From assembly GCA_020628085.1 (NCBI GenBank), contig JAHDFQ010000004.1, forward strand, positions 25,685 through 71,261: a DNA stretch of 45,577 bases. The letters are read 5' to 3'. Below are positions 8,984-40,661 of the stretch, piece after piece. Numbering within the stretch: position 1 is the stretch's first letter; every line of letters starts with the position of its first letter. The position numbers and the translations under genes are program-made. The notes beneath the pieces were generated by a model. That model did not search any database and was not told the origin of the DNA. It saw nothing but the letters and a program-made list of their open reading frames with translations. Origin of the DNA: Saprospiraceae bacterium. Its GTDB lineage: Bacteria > Bacteroidota > Bacteroidia > Chitinophagales > Saprospiraceae.

Positions 8984-10873
8984 ATGAAAAAGAAAGTTGA
9001 AATCCTCGCTCCTGCTAAAAATTTATATCAAGGTACTGCTGCTATCAATGCTGGTGCAGATGCTGTTTATATTGGCGCACCACAGTTTGGCGCACGTACC
9101 AACGCTGCCAATTCAGTTGAAGATATTGCTAAATTAGTCGAATATGCTCATCTTTTTAAAGCACAAGTTTTTGTAGTATTGAATACTATTTTATACGATA
9201 ATGAACTAAAAACTTGCCAAAAACTGATTTACGAATTATATGATATTGGTGTGGATGCACTTATTATTCAGGACATGTCGATCATGGAAATGGACTTGCC
9301 ACCGATTGTTATTCATGCCAGTACGCAAGCCAATAATCGTGATCCACAGCACATCAAATTTCTATCTGATGCTGGTATGAAACGGGTCGTTTTAGCACGA
9401 GAACTCAACTTAGATCAAATCAAAGAAATCCACGAAACAAGTGATATTGAATTAGAGTTTTTCGTATCAGGTGCGTTGTGTGTATCTTTCAGTGGAAACT
9501 GCTACATGAGCGTTGCCAACGGCGAACGTAGTGCCAATCGAGGTTCTTGCGCCCAAAATTGCCGATTACCTTATAATTTGATTGATGGAAATGGTGATAC
9601 TTTACTATCTGAAACACATTTATTGTCCATTAAAGATTTCAATTTAAGCGATCAACTACCCAATTTGATTGAAGCAGGTGTCACCTCTTTTAAAATTGAA
9701 GGACGTTTAAAGGATATTGTTTATGTTAAAAACAATGTGTCTTATTTGAGAAAAAAACTGGATGCTTTTTTAGAAAATAATGGGGAGTTCCAAAAGGCAT
9801 CTTCGGGACGAACCATTTATAGCTTTGAAGCTAAAATGGATAAAAGTTTTAATCGTGGTTATACGGATTATTTTGTGAATCATCGAAAGGAAAAAATTGG
9901 TTCGTGGGAAACACCCAAATCTCAAGGTGAGTACATCGGAAAAATACTTGATATTAAAGCTAATGGTTATATCATTGAAAACTCTGATTTATTGAACAAT
10001 GGTGATGGATTATACTTTTTGAATGAAGAAGGGAAAGCGGACGGTGATCGAGTTAATATTATCATCAATGGTGTCGTCGTTCCAAATACCTTCAGAAAAC
10101 TACCGATCGGTACAGAAATTTATAGAAACTCCGATGCATCCTTCAATAAAATACTAGAGCGAGACGATAGTGCGATTCGTAAAATCGGGATTAGCATGTC
10201 TTTTTCTGAAACCGAGACAGGTTTTAAATTATTGGTTACGGATGAAGATGGACATCAACACAGCATTGATATTGATTTCGACAAACAATTAACCAAAACA
10301 GGTGAATCTATTATTCCAAACATTAAAAAGAACCTTTCCAAAACAGGAAATACGCCTTTTATTGTGGATAATGTGGAGGTACAGTTTTCTCAAAACTGGT
10401 TTTTACCCAATTCTAAAGTTAATGAAGCACGCCGAACCGTTCTGGAAGAACTTATTTCCATTCGAGTGGCGGCATATCACCGAGAAGAATATCAGATCAC
10501 CAAAACCGATCATCCCTACCCTGTTTCGCAACTTGATTATACCTATAATGTATCCAATAAAATGGCGCGTCAATTTTATCTCAGACATGGGGTAACAGAT
10601 ATTGAAAAAGCCTTTGAACTACAATGGGATCCAGGTAAAGCACGAGTCATGACCACCAAATATTGTGTCAAATATGAACTCGGAAAATGTCCACGTTTCC
10701 AACGAAAAACCATGGGCGAAAAACTCAAAGAACCATTGATGCTCAAGCACGGCGAAGTAGAATATAAACTCAAATTCAACTGTAAACCCTGTGAAATGGA
10801 AATTTGGGAAAAGGATGCAGAATTTGAAATAGAAGATTATTTCAGTTTGGAAGATATGATTGTAAACAGTTAA
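8984..10873 (+). CDS. U32-family Fe-S protein (RlhA/TrhP-like RNA hydroxylation family)
   Basis: The start is taken as the ATG at 8984, because MKKKVEILAPAKN is the conserved N-terminus of U32 proteins. The five codons before it overlap the -7 box. The product has 629 residues. The U32 core runs from residue 1 to about 280, with INAGADAVYIGAP and four cysteines in the block GALCVSFSGNCYMS...RGSCAQNCRLPY at about residues 164-200. Those bind an iron-sulfur cluster in studied members. A C-terminal extension ends with more cysteines (FNCKPCEMEIW), and the length is close to RlhA. U32 proteins of this group hydroxylate tRNA uridine (TrhP) or 23S rRNA cytidine (RlhA) using prephenate-linked chemistry. 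The 'peptidase' label is historical. I cannot choose between the two RNA targets. Confidence 0.88.
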   Translation: MKKKVEILAPAKNLYQGTAAINAGADAVYIGAPQFGARTNAANSVEDIAKLVEYAHLFKAQVFVVLNTILYDNELKTCQKLIYELYDIGVDALIIQDMSIMEMDLPPIVIHASTQANNRDPQHIKFLSDAGMKRVVLARELNLDQIKEIHETSDIELEFFVSGALCVSFSGNCYMSVANGERSANRGSCAQNCRLPYNLIDGNGDTLLSETHLLSIKDFNLSDQLPNLIEAGVTSFKIEGRLKDIVYVKNNVSYLRKKLDAFLENNGEFQKASSGRTIYSFEAKMDKSFNRGYTDYFVNHRKEKIGSWETPKSQGEYIGKILDIKANGYIIENSDLLNNGDGLYFLNEEGKADGDRVNIIINGVVVPNTFRKLPIGTEIYRNSDASFNKILERDDSAIRKIGISMSFSETETGFKLLVTDEDGHQHSIDIDFDKQLTKTGESIIPNIKKNLSKTGNTPFIVDNVEVQFSQNWFLPNSKVNEARRTVLEELISIRVAAYHREEYQITKTDHPYPVSQLDYTYNVSNKMARQFYLRHGVTDIEKAFELQWDPGKARVMTTKYCVKYELGKCPRFQRKTMGEKLKEPLMLKHGEVEYKLKFNCKPCEMEIWEKDAEFEIEDYFSLEDMIVNS

Positions 10874-11072
10874 AGATCAAGTATAAGTAGTATTTTTTAT
10901 TACTTAGTAATTTATTTAGTTAAAGTGAATCTCCACATGGTTTATGTTGTACAGGCCATGCTACAAAATCTGTCATTGAAAAATTAATAGTGTTCTATGA
11001 TATCAATACCTTTCGGATATTAGTAGAAAAGAATACAATCACTTAAATTTGCTTACAAACAAAACATCAATC

Positions 11073-14000
11073 ATGAAAAAAATCAGAATTCTAACCATTA
11101 TAGTTATAAGCGTTTTAGCAAATCAACTACAAGCCACAGGTGACTTAGACACTCTATTTAGACCTTTATCAATAGTTAACTTTCAAACCAATCTTGCTAA
11201 TTCAAATTGTGTAGAACCAGACATACCTACTATTACTTATAGCCCAAGTACAATCTGTAGTGATAGTTCTGCTGTATTAAATATTTCAGGCAATAAAAAC
11301 GACGCTACTGCTTGGCACATATATACAGGTTCTTGTGGAGGAAATTTAGTTGGAACAACAACTAATAACACCTACACTGTTAATTCAGTAACTAGCAGTA
11401 CAACATATTTTGTCCGAGGAGAAGGCGGGTGTACGACAGTGGGAAATTGTGGTTCTGTATTAGTACCGATTACGCCGTCCGATGATGCTTCATTTACGTA
11501 CAATAACATTACGTATTGTACTAATGATACCGATCCAACACCTATCATTACGGGTGTTACAGGAGGCTCATTTTCTGCTACTACGGGATTATCCATTAAT
11601 CCGACCACAGGTACGATTGACTTGGATACCTCTGTTCCTGGTAATTATACTGTAACTTATACAACTAATAGCGTATGTTCTAATACATCTAATCAATCAG
11701 TAACAATTCATGCTGCACCTGTTATTAACACACAACCGATAGATCAAACTGAATGTGCTGGTTCAGATATTACTTTTTCAGTGGCTGCCTCAGGCAACAA
11801 CCTAAATTATCAATGGGAACAAACCTGTGCTAATAATTGGACAGTCTATGATGCATCCAACAGTAATGGGTTTCCTAGTGATATTATTACAGATGTGTAC
11901 GAGTCCAACGGAAATATTTACGTGGCAACACTAGAACACGGTTTAGCAGTATTGGAAGTTGGAACCAATATATGGGTTGTTTACAATACATGGACTACCA
12001 CGGATTTTCCAAATAACTTTGTTTATGATGTTTACGAATCAAATGGTAATATTTATGCTGCAACTTATGGTGGAGGTTTAGCTGTTTTATATGCAGGTAT
12101 GAATACTTGGGCGGTTTATGACACGTCAGGTTCTGATGGTTTCCCAAATAATAATGTTAGAGGTGTTTACGAATCAAATGGTAATATTTACGCTGCAACG
12201 GGAGGCGGCGGTTTAGCAGTACTCGAAGCAGGTATGACAAATTGGACTGTCTATGACACGTCAGGTTCTGATGGTTTCCCCGATAACATTGCTACAAGTG
12301 TATATGAATCCAATGGAGATATTTATGCTGGAACTGGTGCAGGGTTGGCAGTTCTTGAAGCAGGTATGAATACTTGGACTATTTATGACACGTCAGGTTT
12401 AGATGGATTCCCTAGCAATCTTATTTTAGATGTTTATGAATCCAATGGAAATATTTATGTAGGAACCAATGATAGTGGATTAGCAGTATTGTATGCAGGC
12501 ATGAATACTTGGACTGTTTATGATACTACTGGTTCTGATGGTTTCCCTAGCAATGAAATTTTCGATGTTTATGAATCAAATGGAAATATTTATGCAGCAA
12601 CATATGGTGGTCTAGCAGTCTTATACGGAGGTGAGAATAACTGGACGGTTTATGATATGTCAGGAATAGACGGATTTCCTGAGGATGGTGTTTTTAGTGT
12701 TTATGAATCTAACAATGTTATTTACGCAGGCACTTTTGGTGGTGGGTTAGCAACTTTATCACTCAATACTACTGCTATTGAAATAGCAGGAGCAATTGCA
12801 TCTAATTATACTATCAACTCGGCTAGTGCTGTAAACGCTGCTTGTGATTACCATGTCGTCATTTCTGATATAAATGGTTGTTCTACAACAAGTGATATGG
12901 CTAATTTAATTGTGAATGAGATTCCAGATATTACCACTATTCCTACACAAAGAAATGTTTGTGGTTCAACTGATTTAGATTTAACGACAATACCTGTTAT
13001 AGATAATAATGCCGTTGCTGGAACAATAATAACTTATCATAGTACAACACCATCAAACGCAACGGATATGTCTAATCAATTAACAGGAGCTGACCTTATC
13101 ATTACATCAGATCAGATAGTACAAGTTATGGTTGCAAATCCCTCAACAGGGTGTTTTGATGTTGAAAGTTTTATGGTAGAAATTACAGAACCTATCGTCA
13201 TCACAACAGAACCTATAAATCAAACTGCTTGTACTGGTGAAAATATTACTTTGAGTGTAGCAGCTACAGGGACTAATTTAAGCTATCAATGGGAGCAAGT
13301 TTGCTCTAATTCTAACTCTGATTGGACAGTGTATAGTAATTCTGAAATAATTGGTTTTCCAAGTAATTCTATTTCTATTGTTGACATTCATGAATCTAAT
13401 GGCAACATTTATGCGGCAACTTTTGGCGGTGGATTAGCGGTATTATATGCAGGAACCAGTACGTGGACAATTTATAATAATATTCCAAGTGATTATGCTC
13501 ATGTGACAGACGTTTATATATCAAATGGAAATATCTATGCTGCTACTCAAGGTGGTTTAGCTATTTTATATGCAGGAATGAATACTTGGACACTTTATGA
13601 TGGTATGGGTAGCGATGGTTTTCCTTTCCTAAGTACTCAAGGTGTCCATGAATCTAATGGAAATATTTACGTAGCAACTTTTGGTGGCTTAGCTATTTTA
13701 TATGCAGGAGCAAGTACTTGGACAGTATATGATGGTACGGGTAACGATAACTTCCCTACTCAATTCGTTCATGATGTTTATGAATCAAATGGAAATATTT
13801 ATGCAGCAACGAATCAAGGAGTAGCTATTTTATACGCAGGGGCAAGTACTTGGACAGTAGGTTTCTCTGGATTTACTATCCGTAGTGTTTATGAATCAAA
13901 TGGAAATATTTATATAGCATCTGATGGAGGAGGTTTAGCTGTTTTACAAGCAGGCGCAAATACTTGGACAGTATATAACGCTACTGGAAATGATAGCTTC

Positions 14001-20510: not shown

Positions 20511-21308
20511 ATGCTCAATCAGATTCTTAGTCCTATACTGGAATATTTCCCTGAAAACAATCGTCTGGAGCGTATTTGGAAGTTGGCAGAAGTCGATTTT
20601 AGAAGAAGATACTATGACAATCTATTAGGTTTATTCTGGGCTTTAATTAATCCTTTATTTAGAGTTGCGGTATATTATTTTGCTTTTACGCAACTACTCG
20701 AAGGCCGAATGGAAAATTACGCATTATACTTGTTCTCTGGGATCATCTTTTGGTTATTTTTTACAGAAGGTACAAACAAAGGACTAACAATAATGGTTCA
20801 AAAAAAATATCTAATAGAAAATATTCAGTTCAATAAACTGGATTTATTCTATTCTTCTACTCTAAGTGTTTTTATAGGTTTTATGTTTAACTTATTAGCC
20901 TATCTAGCTGTAAGTATCATTTCTGGAGTTCCTTTTTATGGGTCAATTGCTTTCTTCCCACTTTTAGTTATCAATATGTTTATTTTAGTTTTATCAGTTA
21001 GTATGTTCTTAGCAACGTTGAATATATATATTAAAGATATTAAACACCTGTGGGCGATGTTAATTATGGCTGGATTTTGGGTAACGCCTATTTTTTTACC
21101 TCGTGAAGCATTTTCTGGTAAATTTGAAATATTATTATACATGAACCCTGTGGCAGGAATTATTATTAATGTCCGTGAAGTTTTATTATATGGCAGAATG
21201 CCAGAAATGAATTTTTTATTGTGGAATTTTGCTTATGCGGTTACACTATTAGCTACGGCTACTATTTTATTTAAGTATTTCTCACATAAGGCTGTTGAAA
21301 AGTACTAG
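20511..21308 (+). CDS. wzm: ABC-2 type polysaccharide export permease
   Basis: The protein has 265 residues. Six TM segments and a cytoplasmic N-terminal amphipathic stretch (IWKLAEVDFRRRYYDNLLGLFW) are typical of Wzm/KpsM-type permeases, as are YIKDIKHLWAMLIMAGFWVTPIFLP and the closing MNPVAGIIINVREVLLYG. It forms the membrane channel that exports a lipid-linked polysaccharide across the inner membrane, with the ATPase encoded 51 bp downstream. It is the first gene of a long + strand locus. Confidence 0.92.
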   Translation: MLNQILSPILEYFPENNRLERIWKLAEVDFRRRYYDNLLGLFWALINPLFRVAVYYFAFTQLLEGRMENYALYLFSGIIFWLFFTEGTNKGLTIMVQKKYLIENIQFNKLDLFYSSTLSVFIGFMFNLLAYLAVSIISGVPFYGSIAFFPLLVINMFILVLSVSMFLATLNIYIKDIKHLWAMLIMAGFWVTPIFLPREAFSGKFEILLYMNPVAGIIINVREVLLYGRMPEMNFLLWNFAYAVTLLATATILFKYFSHKAVEKY

Positions 21309-21359
21309 AATCATTGAAGCTTTTATAATAGATATTTCACCGATTATATAAATAAGATC

Positions 21360-22124
21360 ATGAACGATGATATAGCTGTAAGATTAAAAAATGTTTCTAA
21401 AACATTTTATGTAAATGAAAAGAATAATGATTCTATAAGAGATAGGGTTTTCAATATATTAAAACGAAATGCCTCGAAAAAGATAAAAGCCGTTCAAGGT
21501 ATTAATTTAGAGATCAAGCGAGGAGAGTTTTTTGGAATTATTGGTAGAAATGGTAGTGGAAAATCTACTCTTCTCAAACTTATTATGAATGCATTTCCTC
21601 CCGATAAAGGTGGAAAAGTAATCACTCGTGGTAGGATTATTCGCCTTGCTTTAGGTATGGGGTTTGACCCCAATCTATCCGCTAGAGAAAATATTTATGT
21701 AAATGCTTCTATACTTGGGTTAACCTTCAAGCGAATCGGATTAATTTTCGATGATATTATTGGCTTTGCAGAGTTAGAGAATTTTGTAGAAACTCCAGTT
21801 AAATTTTATAGTAGTGGTATGCGAAGTCGTTTAACCTTTGCTATTGCTGTTCATGCAGAAGCTGATATTTTTTTAATGGACGAATTTTTTGGAGGTGTAG
21901 GAGATATTTCTTTCAAAGAAAAATCTGAAGAAGTGTTTAGAAAAAGTTTTATAGACGGAAGAACTATTATTCATGTGAGTCATCAACTTCGTACTATTGA
22001 AAACCATTGTAATCGGGTATTGATGATGAATAATGGTATTGCTGAAGCAATTGGTTCCGTTCAAGAGATACTTCCACTTTATAAACAACAATTTATAAAA
22101 AAAACAACAATTTCAAGTAAATAG
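21360..22124 (+). CDS. wzt: ABC polysaccharide export ATPase, short form without a C-terminal carbohydrate-binding domain
   Basis: The protein has 254 residues. Walker A is at about 58-66 (GRNGSGKST), the signature at about 150-160 (YSSGMRSRLTFAIA), Walker B at about 170 (ADIFLMDEFFGGVGD), and the H-loop at about 205 (IIHVSHQL). The sequence ends soon after the nucleotide-binding domain (PLYKQQFIKKTT). Wzt proteins that recognise a capped chain end carry a further domain of roughly 150-200 residues, which is missing here. The Walker B text differs from the usual LLIDEVLAVGD, with Phe-Phe-Gly-Gly replacing Val-Leu-Ala. The stop lies 2 bp before the next ATG, so coupling to the giant sulfotransferase/glycosyltransferase is likely. 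Confidence 0.93.
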   Translation: MNDDIAVRLKNVSKTFYVNEKNNDSIRDRVFNILKRNASKKIKAVQGINLEIKRGEFFGIIGRNGSGKSTLLKLIMNAFPPDKGGKVITRGRIIRLALGMGFDPNLSARENIYVNASILGLTFKRIGLIFDDIIGFAELENFVETPVKFYSSGMRSRLTFAIAVHAEADIFLMDEFFGGVGDISFKEKSEEVFRKSFIDGRTIIHVSHQLRTIENHCNRVLMMNNGIAEAIGSVQEILPLYKQQFIKKTTISSK

Positions 22125-22126
22125 TT

Positions 22127-25100
22127 ATGAGTACGAAAAAAGAGTTTCTATTCATTATAGGTATGCACAGAAGTGGGACTTCTGCTGTTGCTGGTTGTTT
22201 TTCACATTTGGGAGGTTATGATCTTGGAAAACAACTTATTCCTCCAAGTTTCGATAATAAAAAAGGTTTCTTTGAAAACCGCTTAATCACTAATTTAAAT
22301 GAAGCACTATTAAAAGCAATAGGTCGTTCTTGGGACTCCCTCATGCCAATGCCTGATGACTGGATAGAATATGATCTTATTGACTCTTTCTTCCAAAAAG
22401 CTATTTCTATTGTTAATAATGAGTTTACAGAAGACTTGCCTATATTAATTAAGGATCCTCGCATCTGTTTACTTTTACCTTTTTGGCTAAAAGTAGTCTA
22501 TCATTTCGAGGCATCTGCAAAAGCAATTATAGTTATACGTGAACCGATATCCGTTGCTAAATCTTTAAATAAGCGAAATAACATACCTTTAAATATAGGT
22601 CAGCTTCTATGGGCTAAATACATGCTAAATATTCAAAAGCATATTAAGGATGTGCAACATGCCTTTATATCTTTTAATTCGCTTATTAACGCACCAAGTG
22701 TCACGATTGATAAGCAAATTCGTACTTTAAAATTAGGAAAACCTTCGAGTAAGAAAAAATTAAAAACTCTTCGAGATTTTATTAGTGCTTCCCTCAATCA
22801 CAATGCAACATCCGAAGATGTAGAGGAAATTGTACGAAATAAAAAAATCGATAGATACTACGAAGTACTACACCTCATCTCAAATACAACAAAGGCAAAT
22901 CGTTTAGATTCTAAGTTTAAAAAAACTTTTAACTCTTTACTAGAAAGTTTAGATTTTTATTACCAAGGACTCATAGAACCAAAGATTTTCTTTGCACAAT
23001 TATCTTTTATCGAATCAGAAAGTGTAAAAAGTACAAAAAAAATAGAGCTGTCAACGGGAAATCAACAATTAAATTTTGAATTTATAAAAAATAAGAATAT
23101 TGATACCATTATTTTACATCCTTGCAATTCTAGTTCTTATTTACAATTGAATAGAGTAATAATTAACTATAATCAAACTTTTGATATTCTAAATGCGACT
23201 CAAACAGAGTCGATTATGGAGCATGGGATCGAATATATATTTGATCAGAATGGATTTATCAAGTTCGATGTTGGAGAGTATGATCATATTGAGTCCGTTA
23301 GCTTTGATATACAATATAGAGCTTTGGGTCAAGCTGCTGTTAATAGTATTAAACATCTTGTTCAATCTTCTAATGAATGGTTTTATAAACGAATGGAAAT
23401 TATTGAAGAAGATAAAAATAGATTAGAACAAGAATTTCAAGAGCAGCAACAAAAAATAGAGCAGCAATCTTTAGAAAAGTACCAAGAAGTAGAGGGTAAA
23501 CTTTCATTATCTGAGACTAATTTAGAGCAATCTAACCAACAAATCAATCAATTTGAAAAAATAGTCAAAGAAAAAGAAGCTATGCTTGAGAAAGAAAAAC
23601 AACAATCCAAAAAACTATTCAAAGACCTTAATGATCTAACTAATGATAATATAGAGCAGCAGAAGCTGCTTGAAGAGGCAATTGCAAGTATAGAGAAACA
23701 TAAAGCTGACAATAATGCTTTTATTCAATCTGTAAAGCAACAACACCAAAAGACAATAGATAAAACGAATACAGAAATAGAAAAAATAAAGGCTGAAAAT
23801 CTAGCTCATAAAGATAGTATTGTTCAAAAACAAAATGAAATTCTGGAAAAAGAACGTTTACTACTTAAAAGTGAATTTCAACTAGAACAAAAAGATTTCT
23901 TTTTAGATCAACTTCAAACGAAGTTGGATGACAAAGAGAAAGATATACAACATATTGAGTCGAAGGTTCAAAATCAACAAGAAAAAATCAGTCAGCTAAA
24001 TGAACAAATCAGCGTCAAAGAAGCAACTATAAAGAACCTTAATCAAAAAGTTGAAGAACTGCAATCAGAGCTAAAAGAAACTAAGAAACAGACAAAAAAT
24101 AACATTGACCATAATAGTATTGAAAAAATAGAACATGTTAAACAACAATTAGCAGATAAAAATATTGAAGTAACAAATCTGCTCGCCAATTTAAAGTTTG
24201 AAGAAGAAAAGAACAAATCTGTTAATGAACTTATTCAAATGATTTTTAATGAGTTAGAAGAGAAAGATTCTTCTATAAAAATCAAAGCAGAAGCTCTACA
24301 ATCAGCACAACAAAATATTGCAACACTATCTTCCCAAGTCGAAGAAAAAAAGAAAGTACTACAAGAAAAAATAGATGAACTCAATCACTTTAAAACTCAA
24401 GTCCAACATTTCTCTTCTGAAAAACAAGAACAAAGTAATCAAATCGTTTTACAAGATGCACAAATTAATACTATAAAAAATTTATTGCAATCTAGTGAAG
24501 AGTTGATTCGAAATCAACATGCTGAAATTAATGAATTGCAGCAAATTATATTAAACTTAGATCGGAATTATGCAGACTTGAAATCTTCCGTTAGCTTCAA
24601 AACTGGTTGGGCAGTAACCTCTCCTTTTAGATGGGTATATGATAAAATATATAAAAATAAACCATTTAATCAATCACAAATGTGGTTATGGATGCAGTTT
24701 TTCAACAACGGGATTAGCAAACCAGGTGCATTTTTGAAGAATGTCAATGCTAAAAATATTAGTACTTTAAGAAAAGCACTCACGAATGAAAGTCCTGAGC
24801 AAATTGCCGCCAATCTTAAAAAACTAATTGCTGGAAGTAATAATGGATCGGCTGTTATAAGTTCAGAAAACGCAACCGTCACCGCTGCAATACAGCAACC
24901 AGAAACAATAGAATCTATTGCATCTAGTCCTATAGAACCCGTCCAAAAAGATGTTATTCAAACTCATGGTGCTGGTACTATTAATGGGCTTTTTCCAAGA
25001 CCAAAAGTATTGTATATCTCTCCAAACCTACCCGATTACGATACTTCAAGTGGAGGTAAACGTGCCACACGAATGCTAGAATTACTTGCACAGGATTGTG

Positions 25101-26854
25101 ATGTGTATGCATTTACTAGAGGATCTATGCCTGAAAAATATATCCAAAAATTATCTGAAGTAGGGGTTATAGTCTTACGAACAACTGATTATAATCAAAT
25201 CAGACGTAGAGTTCATCATATCGATACGATTATTTATGCTTGGTATTATACCTATTTTGATGCCAATCGTTTCACACAACTATATCCTGATGCTAAAATT
25301 GTAGTAGACTCTGTAGACGTACATTGGGTTAGAGAAACACGTTCTCTTGGTATTTGGGAAGGATTGACTCAGGAGACTGTGGATGCGAATAAAAAACGAG
25401 AATTGGAATCTTATAGAAATGCAGACATTGTATGGGCAGTTACAGAAAATGATAAAAAGGCAATCATAGCAGAACTCCCTGATGCGGACGTACGAGTGGT
25501 TTCAAACATTCACGAACATGTAAAAGATAATTTTGAAGATACGAATAATAATAATTTATTATTTATTGGCGGATTCAATCATTATCCTAATATTTCGGCA
25601 GTCAAACTACTGGTAAATGACATACTTCCTAAAATACGTCAACAAGTTCCTGATGCAACGTTGACTATTGCAGGTGCCAATGCGCCCGAAGAAATTCAAG
25701 ACTTAGGAAAGCTACCTGGCGTTATCTATAAAGGATTTATAGAAGAAGAAGACATGGACGCCTTATATGACAATAGTTTCGCTACTATTTCTCCACTTTT
25801 AGCAGGTGCAGGCATTAAAGGTAAAATTTGTGAATCTATCTCTTATATGACACCTGTTATTACGAATGCAATTGGTAATGAGGGTATCGAACTGGAAAAC
25901 ATCAATGATGGTTTGATCACAGATGATTTTGATGAAATGGCAAATCTAGCGGCGAGAGCATTAAAGCGAGAGTTTGATTTTGATACCATGACCAAAAATG
26001 CACAGCACAAACTGCATGGACTTGTAGGATCTGAAACGGTGAAGCAGCGCATGATGTCATCTATTCTGCCCGAAATTTCAATCTGTATCGTTACTTGGAA
26101 TAGACTAGAACTATTAAAACGTTGTATTGAATCGGTAGAAGGAAATACCAATTATCCATATTATAAAATTATTGTCCACTCTAATGGATGTGAAGACGGT
26201 ACACAAGCTTATTTAGAAGCGGCTGCTAAGATCAATCCGAAGATAATTCCTGTCTTATCAAAAGATAATGATGTGTTTGTGATTCCGAACAATCAAATGA
26301 TGATGCAATATCCAGATAATGATGTTGTACTATTAAATAATGATACTTATGTTACTCCCAATTGGTTGATTGGTCTGTACAAAGCAGCCTACTCTTCTAG
26401 TGAAATCGGGATATCTGGTTCCAAAATTATGTATCCAGATGGAAGACTTCAAGAGTTTGGATCTGAGTTATATGAAAATGGATCTGGACGAAATATTGGA
26501 AAGTGGGATGAGAATCCCAACAAACCAGAATACAGTCAGCAAACAGCTGTAGGCTACGTTTCTGGCTGTTCTATGTATATTAAGCGATCCACTATCAATA
26601 AAATAGGAGTTTTTGATCTACAATTTCACCCTTGTTATTGTGAAGACAGTGATTATTGCTATACAGCTTGGGAACATAATATTCAAACTGTCGTAACCCC
26701 ACTAAGTGTCATTTATCATGATGAAGGTGGAACTTCTGGTACAGATACGAGTTCTGGTTTTAAACGCTATCAAGAAGTGAATTTCAAAAAATTCTTAGAT
26801 AAACATAAATCAAACTTAAGTCAAATTGCAGAACAGATAAAAGAATTGAATTAA
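22127..26854 (+). CDS. Sulfotransferase / coiled-coil / GT4 / GT2 fusion protein
   Basis: The protein has 1575 residues. Residues 1 to about 330 are a PAPS-dependent sulfotransferase domain: phosphosulfate loop GMHRSGTSA at 12-20 and 3'-phosphate-binding VIREPISVAKSL near 134-146. Residues about 330-420 form a beta-rich insert. Residues about 423-820 are almost unbroken coiled coil (Gln/Glu/Lys heptads). A short motif, FKTGWAVTSPFRWVYDKIY (about 824-843), follows; similar motifs recur after coiled coils in polysaccharide enzymes, as I recall. A GT4-like domain spans about 958-1305 (SPNLPDYDTSSGGKR, FIGGFNHYPN, LAGAGIKGKICE). A GT2 domain fills about 1313-1575 (ISICIVTWNRLELLKRC, VLLNNDTYV). 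It has no signal or TM segment, so it works at the cytoplasmic face with Wzm/Wzt. Confidence 0.88.
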   Translation: MSTKKEFLFIIGMHRSGTSAVAGCFSHLGGYDLGKQLIPPSFDNKKGFFENRLITNLNEALLKAIGRSWDSLMPMPDDWIEYDLIDSFFQKAISIVNNEFTEDLPILIKDPRICLLLPFWLKVVYHFEASAKAIIVIREPISVAKSLNKRNNIPLNIGQLLWAKYMLNIQKHIKDVQHAFISFNSLINAPSVTIDKQIRTLKLGKPSSKKKLKTLRDFISASLNHNATSEDVEEIVRNKKIDRYYEVLHLISNTTKANRLDSKFKKTFNSLLESLDFYYQGLIEPKIFFAQLSFIESESVKSTKKIELSTGNQQLNFEFIKNKNIDTIILHPCNSSSYLQLNRVIINYNQTFDILNATQTESIMEHGIEYIFDQNGFIKFDVGEYDHIESVSFDIQYRALGQAAVNSIKHLVQSSNEWFYKRMEIIEEDKNRLEQEFQEQQQKIEQQSLEKYQEVEGKLSLSETNLEQSNQQINQFEKIVKEKEAMLEKEKQQSKKLFKDLNDLTNDNIEQQKLLEEAIASIEKHKADNNAFIQSVKQQHQKTIDKTNTEIEKIKAENLAHKDSIVQKQNEILEKERLLLKSEFQLEQKDFFLDQLQTKLDDKEKDIQHIESKVQNQQEKISQLNEQISVKEATIKNLNQKVEELQSELKETKKQTKNNIDHNSIEKIEHVKQQLADKNIEVTNLLANLKFEEEKNKSVNELIQMIFNELEEKDSSIKIKAEALQSAQQNIATLSSQVEEKKKVLQEKIDELNHFKTQVQHFSSEKQEQSNQIVLQDAQINTIKNLLQSSEELIRNQHAEINELQQIILNLDRNYADLKSSVSFKTGWAVTSPFRWVYDKIYKNKPFNQSQMWLWMQFFNNGISKPGAFLKNVNAKNISTLRKALTNESPEQIAANLKKLIAGSNNGSAVISSENATVTAAIQQPETIESIASSPIEPVQKDVIQTHGAGTINGLFPRPKVLYISPNLPDYDTSSGGKRATRMLELLAQDCDVYAFTRGSMPEKYIQKLSEVGVIVLRTTDYNQIRRRVHHIDTIIYAWYYTYFDANRFTQLYPDAKIVVDSVDVHWVRETRSLGIWEGLTQETVDANKKRELESYRNADIVWAVTENDKKAIIAELPDADVRVVSNIHEHVKDNFEDTNNNNLLFIGGFNHYPNISAVKLLVNDILPKIRQQVPDATLTIAGANAPEEIQDLGKLPGVIYKGFIEEEDMDALYDNSFATISPLLAGAGIKGKICESISYMTPVITNAIGNEGIELENINDGLITDDFDEMANLAARALKREFDFDTMTKNAQHKLHGLVGSETVKQRMMSSILPEISICIVTWNRLELLKRCIESVEGNTNYPYYKIIVHSNGCEDGTQAYLEAAAKINPKIIPVLSKDNDVFVIPNNQMMMQYPDNDVVLLNNDTYVTPNWLIGLYKAAYSSSEIGISGSKIMYPDGRLQEFGSELYENGSGRNIGKWDENPNKPEYSQQTAVGYVSGCSMYIKRSTINKIGVFDLQFHPCYCEDSDYCYTAWEHNIQTVVTPLSVIYHDEGGTSGTDTSSGFKRYQEVNFKKFLDKHKSNLSQIAEQIKELN

Positions 26855-26867
26855 AGAGACCTAACTT

Positions 26868-28412
26868 ATGCAAAATAAGGAAAAACAATATCGTAGTTTT
26901 ATATTCACGCATATTCCAAAATGTGGGGGGACTAGCTTTAGAAAATATATTAACGATGCGGCTTTAGCTAATGATATAGATAAAGCCTTGATATATATTC
27001 CTGGATTCAACGACTTAGATAATGATAAAAATATATCTCAATTAAGTAAAGATAAAATAGCTATACTTCGTAAGCAGCCACTCAAAGTACTAGCAAATCA
27101 CTCGCATCATGGCATACAAGATAAAGAAAGGTTAGATATTAAAAACCCCTTTTCATATACAATATTAAGAGAACCAATTGCACGATTTATATCACATTAT
27201 AATTTCTTTTATTATACATTAGGTTATGAGGGTTGCAAAGGTATTTCTTTAAATGATCTCCCTCAATCTAAACTTGAAGACTTAATATTTAAAATATCAA
27301 ATATTCAAACAAAATATATATCTGGTGTTAAACATCCAAAAGCAGCAGGTTGGGACAACGTTTTAAAAATAGCAAAGTATAATTTACTTTTTGAATTTGG
27401 TTGTTTTGGTATTTTAGAACACATTGATCTGTCAGTATTAATGCTTCAAAATGAAGCGCCAGAATGGCTTCAATTTAATGATGTTTTTCCTGTAAGAAAT
27501 AAGAATAATACTAGTAAAAAGGCTTTATCTATTGATGATAATATTATTAAGTTAATTCAAAAAATCAACAAATATGATTGTCAATTATATGATTTTGCAT
27601 TAGAGCAGTTTAATACTAAGATAGAAAAAAAAAATTATCAAATTGATCTAACAAAAAAAAACGAAGAACCCAAGCCAATTACTTACATTCAAGTTTTTGG
27701 AGAACGAAATTCAGGGACAAATTTTTTAAAGAAATTAATTGAATCTAACTTTGAAAATGTAGAAGTTGGGTTCAAATATGGGTGGAAACATGGATTTGTA
27801 AATTTGCGACGTATTCAAAGAGAGGATACAGAACAAACACTATTCTTATGTCTCTTCAAAGATCCTTACTCTTGGTTAGTATCGATGAATAATAAGCCGC
27901 ACCATGCACCACAACTTTTTTTCTTAGAATTTTCAGATTTCATAAAAAGAGAATGGGTTTGTTATAAAGGAAAAGGCTATACTGAAAGAGCCAAACAACT
28001 CGACAAATTTCCTGTAACGGATGAGGAAGAAATGTTACAAGAAAGACATCCCAAAACGAAGGAACGCTTTGAGAATGTAATGCAGCTTAGGAACTTAAAA
28101 AATGACTATTATATAAGACTAAAAAACTGTTGCGAACATTATAAAGCCATTAAATATGAAGATTTATTAGAAGATTCTTCTTCTATTTTGAATGATATAG
28201 AATCCACTTATCAATTAAAGCGTAAGAGTGAAGTAATTATAGATCAAGGCTATCATGGTAAAAACCCAAAAAAGAAATTCAATCGAAAAGCATTTTACCT
28301 CGAAAAAAAATATTTAGACACGTATTCTGATACTGACCTAAAATATGTCAATAAATATCTTGACTTCGAAATAGAAAAAACCATTGGATACAAAAAAATT
28401 AAAAATTTATAA
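26868..28412 (+). CDS. Protein with two tandem sulfotransferase domains
   Basis: The protein has 514 residues. The first domain (about 8-245) has the sulfotransferase family 2 loop HIPKCGGTSF (14-23) and the 3'-phosphate motif ILREPIARFISHYN near 98-111. After a lysine-rich linker (about 250-266), a second domain (about 268-510) has the loop FGERNSGTNFLKKLIE (about 275-290) and LFKDPYSWLVSMNN near 329-342. It ends with the C-terminal helix ending KTIGYKK. Both domains would use PAPS, and the different loops suggest different acceptors. It has no signal peptide and is cytoplasmic. The gene lies 13 bp after the fusion gene. Confidence 0.85.
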   Translation: MQNKEKQYRSFIFTHIPKCGGTSFRKYINDAALANDIDKALIYIPGFNDLDNDKNISQLSKDKIAILRKQPLKVLANHSHHGIQDKERLDIKNPFSYTILREPIARFISHYNFFYYTLGYEGCKGISLNDLPQSKLEDLIFKISNIQTKYISGVKHPKAAGWDNVLKIAKYNLLFEFGCFGILEHIDLSVLMLQNEAPEWLQFNDVFPVRNKNNTSKKALSIDDNIIKLIQKINKYDCQLYDFALEQFNTKIEKKNYQIDLTKKNEEPKPITYIQVFGERNSGTNFLKKLIESNFENVEVGFKYGWKHGFVNLRRIQREDTEQTLFLCLFKDPYSWLVSMNNKPHHAPQLFFLEFSDFIKREWVCYKGKGYTERAKQLDKFPVTDEEEMLQERHPKTKERFENVMQLRNLKNDYYIRLKNCCEHYKAIKYEDLLEDSSSILNDIESTYQLKRKSEVIIDQGYHGKNPKKKFNRKAFYLEKKYLDTYSDTDLKYVNKYLDFEIEKTIGYKKIKNL

Positions 28413-29046: not shown

Positions 29047-30498
29047 ATGATTTTCAATTCCATTGAATTCTTACTATTTCTTCCCATAGTCTTTATATTA
29101 TTTTGGTTCGTTTGTGCTAAAAGTATTAAACTTCAAAATGCTTTATTGATTGTAGCAAGTTATATTTTCTATGGATGTTGGGATTGGCGTTTTTTAGGAC
29201 TTATTATTTTTAGTAGCGTTTTAGATTATACAATAGGGCGACAATTATCCATTGAACCATCTATAAATAAACGTAAGCTACTCCTCTATCTTAGTGTACT
29301 CGTCAATCTCGGATGCCTTGGTTTTTTCAAGTATTTTAATTTCTTTATTGATTCTTTTGAACAACTGATAACAACAGTAGGAATTGAAACGAACTTATGG
29401 ACGTTACAGATTATCTTACCAGTAGGTATCAGTTTCTATACTTTTCAGACGCTTAGTTATACTATAGATGTATATAAAAAAGAAATTGAAGCTAGCACAG
29501 ACCCTTTTGCATTTTTTGCCTATGTTGCATTTTTTCCTCAACTTGTAGCAGGACCTATCGAACGAGCAAAACAGTTTCTGCCTCAATTTTATACCAAGAA
29601 GAAGTTTAATTATACAGAAAGCATAGACGGTTGTAGGCAGATTTTATGGGGTTTCTTCAAAAAAATTGTTATTGCAGACAACTGTGCGCCTTTTGTAGAT
29701 CAGATTTTCGCAGACCCAACCCAATACTCCAATCCTGTCCTATTTTTAGGAGCAGTCTTATTTGCATTTCAAATTTACGGTGATTTTTCTGGATATACAG
29801 ATATAGCCATAGGAGTGGCCAAGCTATTTGGATTCAAATTAATGCGCAACTTTGCATATCCTTATTTTTCAAGAGATATTGCTGAATTTTGGAGACGTTG
29901 GCATATATCCTTATCCTCTTGGTTTAAGGATTATTTATATTTTCCGTTAGGTGGTAGTCGTGGTTCATTACAAAAAACGATTCGTAATGTATTTATCATA
30001 TTTTTGGTGAGTGGCTTTTGGCATGGTGCTAACTGGACATTTATTGTTTGGGGAGGTTTAAATGCACTTTATTTTTTACCTTCTCTGATTGCTGGTTCAA
30101 ATCGAAAAAATTTAGATATGATTTCCAAAGATTCCATCTTACCGCCTTTTTCGGAACTTTATTCTATTTTGACCACGTTTACATTGACCTGCTTAGCATG
30201 GATTTTCTTTCGGGCAGAATCAATTAGTCATGCCATTACATATTTATCGAATTTATTTAACCCATATAGTATTCATAAAACCAACACAGTTCATCTTTCA
30301 AATCATATTTCTATAAGTATTGTATGTAGCTTTATTATGGTTTTAATTATAGTAGAATGGGCACAACGAAGAAGGCTTCACGGACTTGAAAGAATGCCTC
30401 AAAACCAATGGCTAAGATATTTTATTTACACTATTCTAAGCATAACTATTATTTACCATTTTAGTGATGCTACTGAGTTTATATATTTTCAGTTTTAA
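29047..30498 (+). CDS. MBOAT family O-acyltransferase (AlgI-like)
   Basis: The protein has 483 residues. Polytopic membrane protein with about ten TM segments. The family signatures are present: LPVGISFYTFQTLSYTIDVY, FPQLVAGPIERA, EFWRRWHISLSSWFKDYLYFPLGG (first conserved His at about residue 284) and VSGFWHGANWTFIVWGGLN (catalytic His at about 325). It moves an acyl group, normally acetyl, across the inner membrane to a carbohydrate. Its stop overlaps the next gene's start by one base (TAATG), and the next product is the expected SGNH-type partner. Confidence 0.95.
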   Translation: MIFNSIEFLLFLPIVFILFWFVCAKSIKLQNALLIVASYIFYGCWDWRFLGLIIFSSVLDYTIGRQLSIEPSINKRKLLLYLSVLVNLGCLGFFKYFNFFIDSFEQLITTVGIETNLWTLQIILPVGISFYTFQTLSYTIDVYKKEIEASTDPFAFFAYVAFFPQLVAGPIERAKQFLPQFYTKKKFNYTESIDGCRQILWGFFKKIVIADNCAPFVDQIFADPTQYSNPVLFLGAVLFAFQIYGDFSGYTDIAIGVAKLFGFKLMRNFAYPYFSRDIAEFWRRWHISLSSWFKDYLYFPLGGSRGSLQKTIRNVFIIFLVSGFWHGANWTFIVWGGLNALYFLPSLIAGSNRKNLDMISKDSILPPFSELYSILTTFTLTCLAWIFFRAESISHAITYLSNLFNPYSIHKTNTVHLSNHISISIVCSFIMVLIIVEWAQRRRLHGLERMPQNQWLRYFIYTILSITIIYHFSDATEFIYFQF

Positions 30499-31535
30499 TG
30501 AAACGATTCCTTCTATATATCATTTTATTTTTAGCCTTTCTGCTATTCATATTACAAATCCCGGGGTTGTTGCTACCTGAATATTGGGGAAATGACCGAT
30601 TTCGTGCCAAGTTTTCATACTTGGATAAAACAACTCATAATTATTCAACTTATTTCATAGGATCAAGCAGGGTTGGAAATGGAATTATTCCAGAAGTATT
30701 TGATCGTCTCAACAATAAAAAAAATCAATCTTTTAATATTAGTGTTCCTGGTTCAAGTAGTTTAGAAAATCTTAGAGTACTCAAAATTCTTATAAATAAT
30801 TCTGATTTTAATGCTAAAGAAATATTTATAGAATGCCCTACTTTTGCAGTTCCTGAAGGTAGAAACCGAAATTCTGTAAGAGGTATATATTACTATGATA
30901 GTTATGCTTTTTTCATCCAATTGAAAAACATATACAGTAAAAAGACAAACGTTATAAATAAAATAAATTCTGGTTTTGAATATACGATACTCTACCTGAA
31001 ATACCTTTTAAAAATTAATTTATTACAAACTCAAATCAAACAATTAATAGGCTTCTCTCCAGCGCAAAATATACCTTCTATTAAAACTAATCATGGGTAT
31101 GCTCCTCTAAAAATTGGAAGTCAAAATCCAAAACTAATCAAAAGAAGAAATCAGTTCCTGAAGAACACTTCAATATTGAATATAAGAAGAAAAGGAGCAA
31201 AAGAAGCTTTTCAAAAAGAGTATAGTTATGATGAAATTGTTAATCATCATGTTGATGAACTCAAGCAGCTTATCAAGACTGCAAAAAATAAAAATATAGA
31301 TTTATATTTTATGTTGCTTCCTAAAGCTCCTGCAAGTTATTACGAGGATGTATATAAGCATCTTCTAGTACTACCAGAATCTAATTATGTGAATGTTGCC
31401 AATCCTATCAAGTATCCTAATTTATATCAACTAGAATATTCTTTCGACCGAGCGCACTTAACCTTTGAAGGTTCAAAGATATTAACGAAAGCTTTATACA
31501 ATGAATATACTATAAAAAAAGAGTTAAAAAGATGA
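30498..31535 (+). CDS. Membrane-anchored SGNH-like protein, probable MBOAT partner
   Basis: The protein has 345 residues. One N-terminal TM segment (LLYIILFLAFLLFILQIPG) anchors it. The soluble part begins an SGNH-type fold: STYFIGSSRVGNGI (block I, Ser near 54-55) and the closing FDRAHLTFEGSKIL (block V with Asp and His near 316-319). The middle is weakly conserved and I see no clear Gly and Asn blocks. In alginate and peptidoglycan acetylation an MBOAT protein works with such a periplasmic protein (AlgJ/AlgX, PatB type) that transfers the acyl group to the acceptor. The one-base overlap with the MBOAT gene supports that here. Confidence 0.7.
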   Translation: MKRFLLYIILFLAFLLFILQIPGLLLPEYWGNDRFRAKFSYLDKTTHNYSTYFIGSSRVGNGIIPEVFDRLNNKKNQSFNISVPGSSSLENLRVLKILINNSDFNAKEIFIECPTFAVPEGRNRNSVRGIYYYDSYAFFIQLKNIYSKKTNVINKINSGFEYTILYLKYLLKINLLQTQIKQLIGFSPAQNIPSIKTNHGYAPLKIGSQNPKLIKRRNQFLKNTSILNIRRKGAKEAFQKEYSYDEIVNHHVDELKQLIKTAKNKNIDLYFMLLPKAPASYYEDVYKHLLVLPESNYVNVANPIKYPNLYQLEYSFDRAHLTFEGSKILTKALYNEYTIKKELKR

Positions 31536-31544
31536 TATAGGAAA

Positions 31545-33143
31545 ATGAAAAAAACGAATCATATCTCAAATATCAGCTTATCAATACCGTTTGTACATCA
31601 AGTAGTACTCTTGGTTGTTGGTCTCTGTTCAATAAGTTGCTCTAAATGTGTGATGCCAGCAAAAGGACACTTATTAGTACCAACATTTGAAGATGTCACA
31701 GACACAAAATCTGTCAGTAACAGAAATATGACTTTTGCCGCCGCAGCAGGTGACTTTAATCAAGACAGTTGGATGGATTTAGTAGTATCTAATCATAATT
31801 ATATTCAGGTATATATTAATAACGAAGGAAAAAGCTTTACTCCTTTGGATACTTTAAATCATAAAAAAGATAATCATGGAGTTAGTTTTATTGATTTGAA
31901 TAATGATTACAAACCAGAATTAGCTGTGTCTATTGGTAGTAGAAAAGGGAAAGGGAAAGGTGAAGGAAATAATTTCTTTAATTTTACTCCTTCAAATAAA
32001 TTTGAAGAAACTCCCCTTACGGATAGTATTCTCTTAGATAACTGGGGACGTGGTCGCCTAATTATTCCATTAGATTTTAATCAAGATGGCATAATGGACA
32101 TGTCTTACATGAACTATGGAACGGGAAGCAACTCTAAAAATGTAAATAAAATCATTTTAGGGAAAACAAAGAATTCTTCTTTACTAAATCAGTATGAAGT
32201 TATTCATTCAGGTATTGAAAACCTTAATACTACATATTTCACCTTAGCTAACCTGTTTAATTCCAAAGATAGATACCTTATTCTAGATAGAGGAGGAAAT
32301 CAATCAGGAAGTATCTTTAAAGTAACACCCGATTTACAATTGATAGATGAAACTGAAAATTTTGATGTTATTTCAGCAAGTGTTGTCAAAAGAATAGTTC
32401 CTTTAGACTTTGATAATGATGGAGATTTGGATTTGCTTTACCTTTTATCTAAAAAGAAAACTACCGTATTATTCGAAAATACAGGTCATTCATTTATCAG
32501 AACACCAACAGGAATCGAATTTAATGCTAAAGGAGGGGATGCAGTTACAGGTGATTTTAATAATGATGGTTTTATTGATATCTATATCATTAATACGAAT
32601 TTAAAAAAGCCAATACCACCTAATGCGCTGTACCTCAACAATGGTAAGAAAGAATTTTTTAGAATTAATGCAATTACGAAAAGAGATTCTATTAAAACAT
32701 TAGAGCAGATTCCTACCATTCAATTTGGAGCATCTATCTTAGATGGTTTATCCAAAGGAGAGAGCAATGGAGCCGTTTGTTTTGACAACAATAATGACGG
32801 AAAACTAGATATTTTTATTCATAATGGACATCGTAAAAGTAGTGGTTCGAATCAACTTCTTCAAAATACTACTATAAATAAGGGTAATTTTTTACAAATA
32901 AATTTAAAAAGTACCGTTTCCAATACACAGGCATGGGGAACAAGAATACTAGTAGAATTTGGTGATCAACAACAATATCAACAAAAATTTAGTGCTAATG
33001 CTAAGTTAGGTGTAAGTGATTTACCTTTTCACGTTGGTTTGGGTAATTCTAAAAAAGCAAAAGTAACGGTATTTTGGCCTTCTGGAAAGGTAACTGTGCT
33101 AAAAAAAGTAAAGGCCAATCAATTTATTACGATACAAGAGTAA
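31545..33143 (+). CDS. Lipoprotein with FG-GAP repeats and C-terminal ASPIC/UnbV domain (CRTAC1-like)
   Basis: The protein has 532 residues. A hydrophobic N-terminus ends in a lipobox-like SISC, giving a probable lipoprotein. Six calcium-binding-type loops follow at about residues 69 (DFNQDSWMDLVV), 117 (DLNNDYKPELAV), 177 (DFNQDGIMD), 288 (DFDNDGDLDLLY), 336 (DFNNDGFIDIYI) and 414 (DNNNDGKLDIFI). These are the signs of an FG-GAP/VCBS propeller. The end (about 460-530, FHVGLGNSKKAKVTVFWPSGKV) is an ASPIC/UnbV module. Proteins of this build are extracytoplasmic and thought to bind other molecules; no enzymatic role is proven. It lies 9 bp after the SGNH gene and 9 bp before the GT-C-like gene, so it clearly belongs to this operon. 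Confidence 0.85.
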   Translation: MKKTNHISNISLSIPFVHQVVLLVVGLCSISCSKCVMPAKGHLLVPTFEDVTDTKSVSNRNMTFAAAAGDFNQDSWMDLVVSNHNYIQVYINNEGKSFTPLDTLNHKKDNHGVSFIDLNNDYKPELAVSIGSRKGKGKGEGNNFFNFTPSNKFEETPLTDSILLDNWGRGRLIIPLDFNQDGIMDMSYMNYGTGSNSKNVNKIILGKTKNSSLLNQYEVIHSGIENLNTTYFTLANLFNSKDRYLILDRGGNQSGSIFKVTPDLQLIDETENFDVISASVVKRIVPLDFDNDGDLDLLYLLSKKKTTVLFENTGHSFIRTPTGIEFNAKGGDAVTGDFNNDGFIDIYIINTNLKKPIPPNALYLNNGKKEFFRINAITKRDSIKTLEQIPTIQFGASILDGLSKGESNGAVCFDNNNDGKLDIFIHNGHRKSSGSNQLLQNTTINKGNFLQINLKSTVSNTQAWGTRILVEFGDQQQYQQKFSANAKLGVSDLPFHVGLGNSKKAKVTVFWPSGKVTVLKKVKANQFITIQE

Positions 33144-39989: not shown

Positions 39990-40661
39990 TTATGTATGCA
40001 ACCCACATTCTGTTTTATCTAATCCTTCCCAACGCCCAGAACGACTTTCTCCAAATTCTATAAAAGAAGTGCAAGGTTCACAACCTATACTACCACCTGC
40101 CAAATCATATAAAGGATGTTGAGGTAAATCATATTGATGAATATATTGCCAAATCATTCTTTTATCCCATTCTAACATAGGATAATATTTGAGAATATCA
40201 CTTCTTGAGTCATCTTCTTTAGAAAGTCCTGATCTATGCGTGTTTTGATCTCTCCGCAATCCACTTATCCAAATATCATACTGTGCAATAATTGGTTCTA
40301 GGGGTAATACTTTGTTCAAATAACAGCAATGATCTGGCTTCGAAGTGAAGTGAAATTTACCTCCTGTATTTTTTTGTTCTATTTTACTGATTGGTGATTC
40401 TAAATCGATTACTTTAATTCCCAGCCTAGTGGCTACTTGATTTTTAAAAGCAATCGTTTCTGGAAAGTGAAATCCAGTATTTAGAAAATAAACAGGTATA
40501 TTTTCATCTATTGTACTGATAATGTGTAATAGTGGAATACTATGAGATTGAAAAGAGGAGGATATAAAAATAGATTTACCTTCTTTTTTGTACTGGCCAA
40601 GTTGCTGTTTGATACCCGTAATTTCCTGTTCAATTTTGATTGTAGTATCCGTTGATTTCAT
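39990..40661 (-). CDS. cysH: APS reductase-type CysH protein
   Basis: The protein has 223 residues. Full-length adenosine-phosphosulfate reductase: SSSFQSHSIPLLHI (35-48), LNTGFHFPET (60-69), CC at 112-113 in KPDHCCYLNKVLPLEP, WISGLRRDQNTHR (131-143), CxxC at 194-197 in IGCEPCTSF, and the catalytic Cys219 in KTECGLH. The CC plus CxxC set binds a 4Fe-4S cluster and marks the APS, not PAPS, type. It reduces APS to sulfite with thioredoxin-type donors. It starts directly after the GNAT stop (TAG then ATG, no gap), inside a sugar operon, with no sulfate-assimilation genes beside it. Confidence 0.92.
   Translation of the reverse strand: MKSTDTTIKIEQEITGIKQQLGQYKKEGKSIFISSSFQSHSIPLLHIISTIDENIPVYFLNTGFHFPETIAFKNQVATRLGIKVIDLESPISKIEQKNTGGKFHFTSKPDHCCYLNKVLPLEPIIAQYDIWISGLRRDQNTHRSGLSKEDDSRSDILKYYPMLEWDKRMIWQYIHQYDLPQHPLYDLAGGSIGCEPCTSFIEFGESRSGRWEGLDKTECGLHT

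Follow-up and report, generated by a model that had tools for sequence, protein, structure and literature searches.

A sulfotransferase, a long coiled coil and two glycosyltransferases in one chain: a possible sulfate cap and chain-length ruler in a Saprospiraceae bacterium

In the window, by which we mean the whole stretch of 45,577 nucleotides that was analyzed, one open reading frame joins a sulfotransferase, a long coiled coil and two glycosyltransferases in a single polypeptide, and starts two bases after the stop codon of a Wzt-like gene (Table 1). The question raised by this locus is whether the sulfotransferase could end a growing polysaccharide chain at a distance set by the coiled coil, or whether its sulfate would go elsewhere. 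We hold with about even confidence that the protein belongs to the one-chain glycan assembly proteins typified by WbbB and O7 ORF6, with a sulfate cap and a coil ruler. For the wide family of such proteins, terminal sulfation combined with a ruler is the preferred reading; for the window protein itself, it is only moderately likely. The mechanism is plausible and has family-wide support, but terminal capping competes with sulfation of the repeats for the window protein.

In the proposed mechanism, the C-terminal GT4 and GT2 domains would elongate a lipid-linked polysaccharide chain at the membrane, where a motif behind the coil may anchor the glycosyltransferase end, and the coil would keep the PAPS-dependent sulfotransferase far off. 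Once the growing non-reducing end reached the sulfotransferase, sulfate would be added and extension would stop, the chain length would be set by the length of the coil, and the finished chain would be exported by Wzm/Wzt. The sulfate at the terminus, the stopping of extension and the use of the coil as a measure are the steps that we infer.

Domains and surroundings of the window protein

Table 1. Features of the locus, with positions in the window
Feature	Position	Strand	Basis or remark
Wzm-like ABC-2 permease, 265 aa	20511-21308	+	Pfam ABC2_membrane, E 2.4e-10
Wzt-like ATPase, 254 aa, without C-terminal CBM	21360-22124	+	Pfam ABC_tran and weaker P-loop matches
Whole ORF, 1575 aa, ATG start	22127-26854	+	sulfotransferase / beta-sandwich-like region / coil / conserved motif / GT4 / GT2
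Sulfotransferase domain, residues 1-254	22127-22888	+	AlphaFold model, fold comparison, alignment
PAPS loop GMHRSGTS, residues 12-19	22160-22183	+	motif in sulfotransferase domain
KDPR motif of sulfotransferase domain	22451-22462	+	motif
Beta-sandwich-like region, residues 288-400, possible sugar-binding module	22988-23326	+	eight strands, low-confidence model
Coiled-coil zone, residues 415-820, limits set by eye	23369-24586	+	COILS, periodicity, AlphaFold
Conserved S-x-S-[YFW]-x-x-G motif, then T-x-P-x-R, at the coil's C-terminal end	24587-24658	+	pattern
GT4 glycosyltransferase, residues 984-1310	25076-26056	+	Pfam PF13692, E 1.3e-16
GT2 glycosyltransferase, residues 1311-1570	26057-26836	+	Pfam PF00535, E 8.2e-12
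Downstream gene, 514 aa, Sulfotransfer_2 domain and second sulfotransferase-like part	26868-28412	+	Pfam PF03567, E 1.8e-12 (first part)

The initial annotation had placed the ORF directly after Wzm/Wzt, and the pair indeed occupies 20511-22124, so that an ABC exporter adjoins the ORF, as is characteristic of coiled-coil polymerase-terminator proteins. By domain order, the putative terminator and the polymerase-type glycosyltransferases lie at opposite ends of the coil. The GT4 and GT2 domains claimed for the C-terminus were both matched by Pfam (Glyco_trans_1_4 at residues 1142-1279 and Glycos_transf_2 at residues 1318-1484).

At the N-terminus, Pfam yielded only a sub-threshold match to Sulfotransfer_3 (E 0.2), and the domain was therefore modeled by AlphaFold. 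With an alignment of 68 rows, the model had a pLDDT of at least 87 in every ten-residue block of residues 1-220. The best 20 Foldseek matches were sulfotransferases without exception, and six of them had an E of 0.001 or better; Teg12 and Teg14, which we take to be sulfotransferases, were among the matches. VIA-align superposed the model on human TPST1 with bound PAP (5wri_A) with a Z of 16.1 and an rmsd of 3.5 over 211 aligned residues, and gave Z of 14.7-14.9 for the sulfotransferase domains of the curacin pathway and of the Synechococcus olefin synthase. The possibility that the N-terminus is merely a look-alike P-loop protein was rejected, because unrelated P-loop proteins scored below the best sulfotransferases (adenylate kinase 2c95_B, Z 10.6; PFKFB2, Foldseek rank 21). 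A PAPS-dependent sulfotransferase fold is thus well supported for the N-terminus, which bears out the PAPS-type sulfotransferase read from the sequence by the initial annotation.

The residues G12, M13, H14, S16, G17, T18, S19, N44, G47, K109, D110, P111, R112, R138 and S146 are invariant in the 68-row alignment, in which R138 and S146 are the presumed 3'-phosphate site. The assignment of such motifs to the 5'-phosphosulfate loop and to the 3'-phosphate Arg...Ser pair of PAPS sulfotransferases is our assumption. The 67 other rows came from a scan for motif patterns, which makes the conservation of the motifs in this alignment circular, and the PAPS-site residues were therefore rechecked on proteins found by homology. 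S/C16-G17-T/S18, K109-D110, R138 and S146 are kept in 24 of these 25 proteins, the window protein included, when the duplicates L158 and L175 (identical to L048 and L084, respectively) are dropped and seven rows from the motif scan are kept apart. Small changes elsewhere in the motifs were found in L039, L157, L159 and L176. Dead sulfotransferase motifs in homologues, which had been named as an observation that would speak against a sulfate cap, occur once, in the degenerate domain of L038.

An APS kinase is encoded in the genome of the window, and lies beside the gene in some relatives, which is indirect, gene-content evidence that the domain may transfer sulfate from PAPS. Elsewhere in the window, a CysH-type PAPS reductase (39990-40661, minus strand, over the NCBIfam cut-off) is encoded inside a sugar-biosynthesis cluster; the neighboring protein has a WecD-like match that fell short of the cut-off. 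The nearest folds of the domain are tyrosylprotein sulfotransferases, which could mean that it acts on another substrate, such as a lipid-linked primer, a core sugar or a protein, and that the fusion serves co-localization only. We consider this highly improbable in view of the gene order with Wzm/Wzt, the fusion to glycosyltransferases and the recurrence near Wzm/Wzt in several phyla.

The preferred reading also requires a coil that could act as a ruler. Residues 411-820 contain no proline and one glycine, and have a hydrophobic periodicity near 3.55 that was equaled by three of 2000 shuffled sequences; fully extended, the coil zone of 406 residues would span about 60 nm. COILS, in our own re-implementation, whose matrix may differ from that of the original program, gave P > 0.5 for 322 residues in four segments (419-528, 592-659, 662-754 and 777-827), covering 78% of the coil zone with gaps. 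The initial annotation had described about 400 residues of almost unbroken coiled coil. The length and the predominance of coil hold, but "almost unbroken" is generous, given a COILS gap at about residues 529-591, register shifts, and helix breaks near residues 456-462, 555-559 and 683-691 in a low-confidence AlphaFold model (mean pLDDT 58). A fold search with the same model of beta region and coil found nothing at E 0.001 or better, the best match being a viral protein (E 6.8e-3). A pattern search recognized the motif behind the coil in 11 of 16 distinct proteins (12 of 17 rows); the coil-less L034, L039 and L160 lack the pattern, as do L037 and L085. By analogy with the amphipathic helix of WbdD (PMC11231755), it may serve as a membrane anchor.

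The beta-sandwich-like region at about residues 288-400, the lack of a CBM in Wzt and the second sulfotransferase gene downstream had not been remarked on in the initial annotation. The second part of this downstream gene carries a GERNSGTN loop and is sulfotransferase-like by motif only, as the Pfam search gave no match for it. In L032, the two parts are separate genes, and this two-part organization makes repeated sulfation of the polymer probable. Further downstream, 29047-33143 encodes an MBOAT acyltransferase (DltB-like, below the NCBIfam cut-off), a 345-aa protein without assigned function and an FG-GAP/ASPIC-UnbV protein.

Family relatives with the same glycosyltransferases

Matches to the N-terminus were found in 17 of 148 near genomes and in 38 of 396 genomes of the order, and the GT4-GT2 part was matched at E 1e-120 or better in 18 of 398 genomes of the family, the own genome being included in each case. 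The sulfotransferase is fused in 12 of these 18 (degenerate in one), is encoded by a separate upstream ORF in one (L201), is absent from four (L202, L203, L204 and L205) and is undecided in one, L199, which is cut by a contig end. Eleven have a long coil and two a short one of about 50 residues; four have none before the linker, and one is undecided. A sulfotransferase together with a long coil is present in nine of the 18, counting the degenerate sulfotransferase and the one encoded as a separate ORF. Four have a sulfotransferase without a coil before the linker (L034, L039, L160 and L207, the last with one coil segment of 34 residues nearer GT4), and four have a coil without a sulfotransferase, long in L203 and L204 and short in two. 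The sulfotransferase and the coil have therefore been lost independently of each other, which weakens the strict cap-plus-ruler reading for the family of the window. The coil-GT4-GT2 proteins without sulfotransferase of L204 (9363-13742) and L203 (6630-11663) have an N-terminal beta region, as judged by eye, and the former also has a C-terminal methyltransferase match.

The length of the coil zone, with limits set by eye, differs widely among proteins with the same GT4-GT2: 406 residues in the window, 405 in L032, 328 in L038, 303 in both L157 and L159, 158 in L048 and 137 in L033. In proteins with other glycosyltransferase parts, it is 635 (L031), 431 (L036), 189 (L035) and 122 (L040). The protein of L048 with its shorter coil has 1305 aa. 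Identity of GT2 to that of the window is 59-77% in L032, L033, L034, L038, L048, L157 and L159 and 50-51% in L039 and L160, and identity of the sulfotransferase to that of the window is 30-40%. The expectation that coil length would vary between conserved ends thus holds, with a coil zone from none to about 406 residues and end domains that align around the same GT4-GT2.

Separate sulfotransferase-type genes are present in 14 of the 18 family loci when counted by motif, not by profile (11 by pattern, and L032, L205 and L207 by reading). They are also present where the fused sulfotransferase is absent or degenerate, and are at least as well kept. With them, the polymer probably undergoes more than one sulfation, and such extra enzymes could sulfate the whole chain. 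This bears on the main alternative, in which the fused sulfotransferase would modify residues inside every repeat during synthesis and the coil would be only a scaffold; the four family members that combine a sulfotransferase and glycosyltransferases in one chain without a coil before the linker would also fit it. In the window protein, however, the sulfotransferase is kept at a distance from the glycosyltransferases by a coil zone of about 400 residues, the position of the coil and the order of the domains match those of known terminators (PMC11231755), and Wzt_C CBMs accompany family members elsewhere, and we therefore regard repeat decoration as unlikely, although it is a serious competitor. 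Separate proteins that combine GT2 and TPR parts are encoded near the loci of L038 (2294-5116) and L041 (8176-11442); that of L038 ends in a Sulfotransfer_2 domain, and is a further fused glycosyltransferase-sulfotransferase format.

Transporters, other groups and the evolution of coil length

For terminal capping with a ruler, the transporter is informative, as a CBM-bearing Wzt is a feature of known coiled-coil terminator systems. The window Wzt departs from it: Pfam found no Wzt_C in its 254 aa, and the NCBIfam match to galactan-export Wzt was below the cut-off. The supposition that sulfation gates export in the window system is not supported, since its Wzt lacks the CBM, and export in the Saprospiraceae-type system is probably not gated by sulfate. 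Wzt_C was likewise not found in any of the four Bacteroidota Wzt tested by Pfam. These observations, together with the absence of the sulfotransferase from four of the 18 family members, are compatible with a terminal cap that is optional, varies the chain end and has no role in length or export, like the pyruvate of K. pneumoniae O1. Such a cap is improbable in our judgment, because it leaves unexplained both the long coil and its gap-free conservation between L157 and L159, whose coil zones of 303 residues each are 52% identical, with 84% identity in GT4, 92% in GT2 and only 53% in the sulfotransferase.

Support for a sulfate cap with a coil ruler comes from other groups. A collection of 84,980 species was scanned with the PAPS-loop and KDPR patterns. 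At least 555 loci matched, and the analysis covered 80 of them, which their record titles assign to Proteobacteria, Bacteroidota, Verrucomicrobia, Bacillota and other groups; motif conservation among these 80 is circular, because the motifs were used to find them. At least 28 coil residues follow the sulfotransferase in 61 of the 80, as assessed with our own profiles. A same-strand Wzm/Wzt pair was located in the 6 kb upstream of the gene in 19 of the 80, and 18 of those 19 loci also have a coil. The association between coil and upstream Wzm/Wzt pair was not significant (Fisher p 0.087, 58 testable loci, 16 with the pair). The Wzm/Wzt, glycosyltransferase and sulfotransferase profiles were seeded from Bacteroidota of the group of the window and may miss others. 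Wzt is at least 380 aa long in 14 of the 19 loci with the pair, and a Wzt_C CBM was found in all six long Wzt tested near sulfotransferase-coil genes in other phyla. The five loci with a short Wzt (L054, L061, L082, L085 and L108) indicate that the CBM is not universal. We had considered a His-Arg pair (YLHR..D) in the C-termini of Wzt as a sulfate-specific feature; since Asp-Arg or Ala-Arg stands in its place in some rows, and Asp-Arg in the solved CBM 2r5o, the pair was not used as evidence. In L054, a protein encoded at 9998-12133, 1.7 kb after Wzt, contains, in this order, a sulfotransferase, a methyltransferase and a coil ending in SRSWRYTRPIRK, possibly a double-chemistry cap.

An APS kinase is encoded in nine of the 80 loci, of which three (L049, L090 and L104) have no coil; by a rough estimate, chance would account for fewer than one such locus in 80. 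In the Pseudomonas loci L066, L067, L071 and L074, 28-67 bases separate the sulfotransferase-coil gene from the APS kinase gene that follows it, and the distance is 62 bases in L174, the fifth Pseudomonas locus with the two genes directly side by side. A homology search of 398 genomes of this genus gave 10 matches, including that of L071 itself and counting L175. In all nine other loci, Wzm and Wzt are directly upstream, with a Wzt of 454-498 aa in eight and of 255 aa in L177 (lengths only), and two of the nine, L174 and L176, have an APS kinase. Among the five Pseudomonas loci found by pattern, the pair is present in L071, L074 and L084, and was not found in the upstream stretch examined of L066 and L067, which have the APS kinase.

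The coil of these proteins also differs in length between close relatives. Between L071 and L074, the sulfotransferase is 97% and the coil 65% identical, and the two proteins are of equal length from the PAPS loop onward apart from 14 coil residues, or two heptads. L179 differs from L180 or L181 by a net 32 coil residues, which is not a multiple of seven, while no coil indels separate L180 from L181, L066 from L067 or L071 from L174. A natural length variant is found in a Pseudomonas locus (L178, 7141-7558), where three tandem copies of 138 bp (93%) lie inside the coil. A rule that coil length changes by multiples of seven was discarded, as it fits the 14 residues and does not fit the 32 of L179 or the 46 of the L178 repeat. 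Judged from these comparisons, the coil appears to evolve like a length-tunable spacer, which is consistent with, and does not prove, the measuring of a polymer. The Pseudomonas pair two heptads apart and the 138-bp tandem copies form a natural series of ruler lengths that makes the ruler model directly testable.

The domains, the intact PAPS site, the gene order, the conserved ends around a variable coil and the presence of the same module near CBM-bearing Wzt elsewhere were all computed. From them, we propose that sulfate is a further chemistry that ends and certifies ABC-exported polysaccharides: sulfotransferase-coil proteins in Proteobacteria, Bacteroidota, Verrucomicrobia, Bacillota and others would cap at a distance set by the coil, the CBMs of Wzt would read the sulfated end, and Saprospiraceae such as the present one, without a transporter CBM, would instead have what may be a sugar-binding domain at the ruler's tip. 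We believe this general proposal about as much as we doubt it. If it is true, a terminal sulfate is predicted in the polysaccharides of many uncharacterized bacteria, and the question is raised of how a CBM-less transporter that works with a ruler-like protein decides that a chain is finished. The most valuable part of these results lies outside the window, in the Wzm-Wzt(CBM)-sulfotransferase-coil gene sets of named strains of Pseudomonas, Dyella, Stenotrophomonas and others.

Comparison with known systems

A search of the open-access literature by title or abstract found no sulfotransferase terminator, although subscription papers or reviews may mention one; no open-access paper combined a sulfotransferase with WbdD, and the combination with a molecular ruler returned other topics only. 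The stem "sulf" is absent from the texts of PMC9445017, PMC11231755 and PMC3482155. The nearest published case found is the wbsalmo cluster of Aeromonas salmonicida, in which a separate sulfotransferase gene lies between Wzt and WbbB, and whose authors stated that no such residue seems to be found (PMC4483657). The galactan system of K. pneumoniae O1/O2 resembles the window in having an ABC transporter without a CBM; its terminal pyruvate is optional and does not determine length, and the part of the account available to us mentions no coil terminator (PMC11231755).

In WbdD of E. coli O9a, the capping enzyme is located at the end of a coil (PMC3482155). The same format is found in L047, L053 and L070 (by Pfam) and L058 (by our own profiles), which resemble WbdD since no glycosyltransferase was found fused to their sulfotransferase-coil proteins; among them, glycosyltransferase-profile matches elsewhere in the locus were found in L047 and L070 only. 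WbdD differs from the window protein in that its enzyme is a methyltransferase-kinase, its polymerase, WbdA, is a separate protein, and its C-terminal region comprises about 249 residues (460-708), compared with about 406 in the coil zone of the window (PMC3482155). Proteins with domains after the coil resemble WbbB instead, namely the window protein with GT4 and GT2, L071 with RgpF-like and WbsX domains and L066 with RgpF and a hydrolase (by Pfam). The fused format also occurs in L074, from Pseudomonas koreensis B1M1-15, and the WbdD-like L047 is from Dyella choica; both are culturable environmental strains.

In WbbB of K. pneumoniae O12, an N-terminal terminator, a coiled coil and two C-terminal glycosyltransferases form one polypeptide, and the product is exported by an ABC transporter (PMC11231755). 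The terminator is a beta-Kdo transferase in place of the sulfotransferase, and the transporter reads the cap through a CBM, whereas the window Wzt has none. ORF6 of K. pneumoniae O7, which adds a methyl-phosphate cap, follows the same one-chain plan, with a terminator, an Ig-like CBM-type domain, a coil and two glycosyltransferase modules in succession, much as in the window protein, where the possible sugar-binding module precedes the coil; unlike in the latter, its terminator consists of a methyltransferase and a kinase, its modules are GT2 and GT2, and a further glycosyltransferase is separate (PMC11231755). The suggestion that a capping-type enzyme, a ruler-like coil and polymerizing domains share one chain is thus sustained by a domain order like that of WbbB and O7 ORF6, and for the same reason the one-chain arrangement itself was dismissed as a novelty, as it is already known from these two proteins (PMC11231755). 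The new element is the sulfotransferase in the terminator slot. Known caps are methylation, (methyl)phosphorylation and added sugars such as Kdo (PMC9445017), and sulfation would join them if our reading is true.
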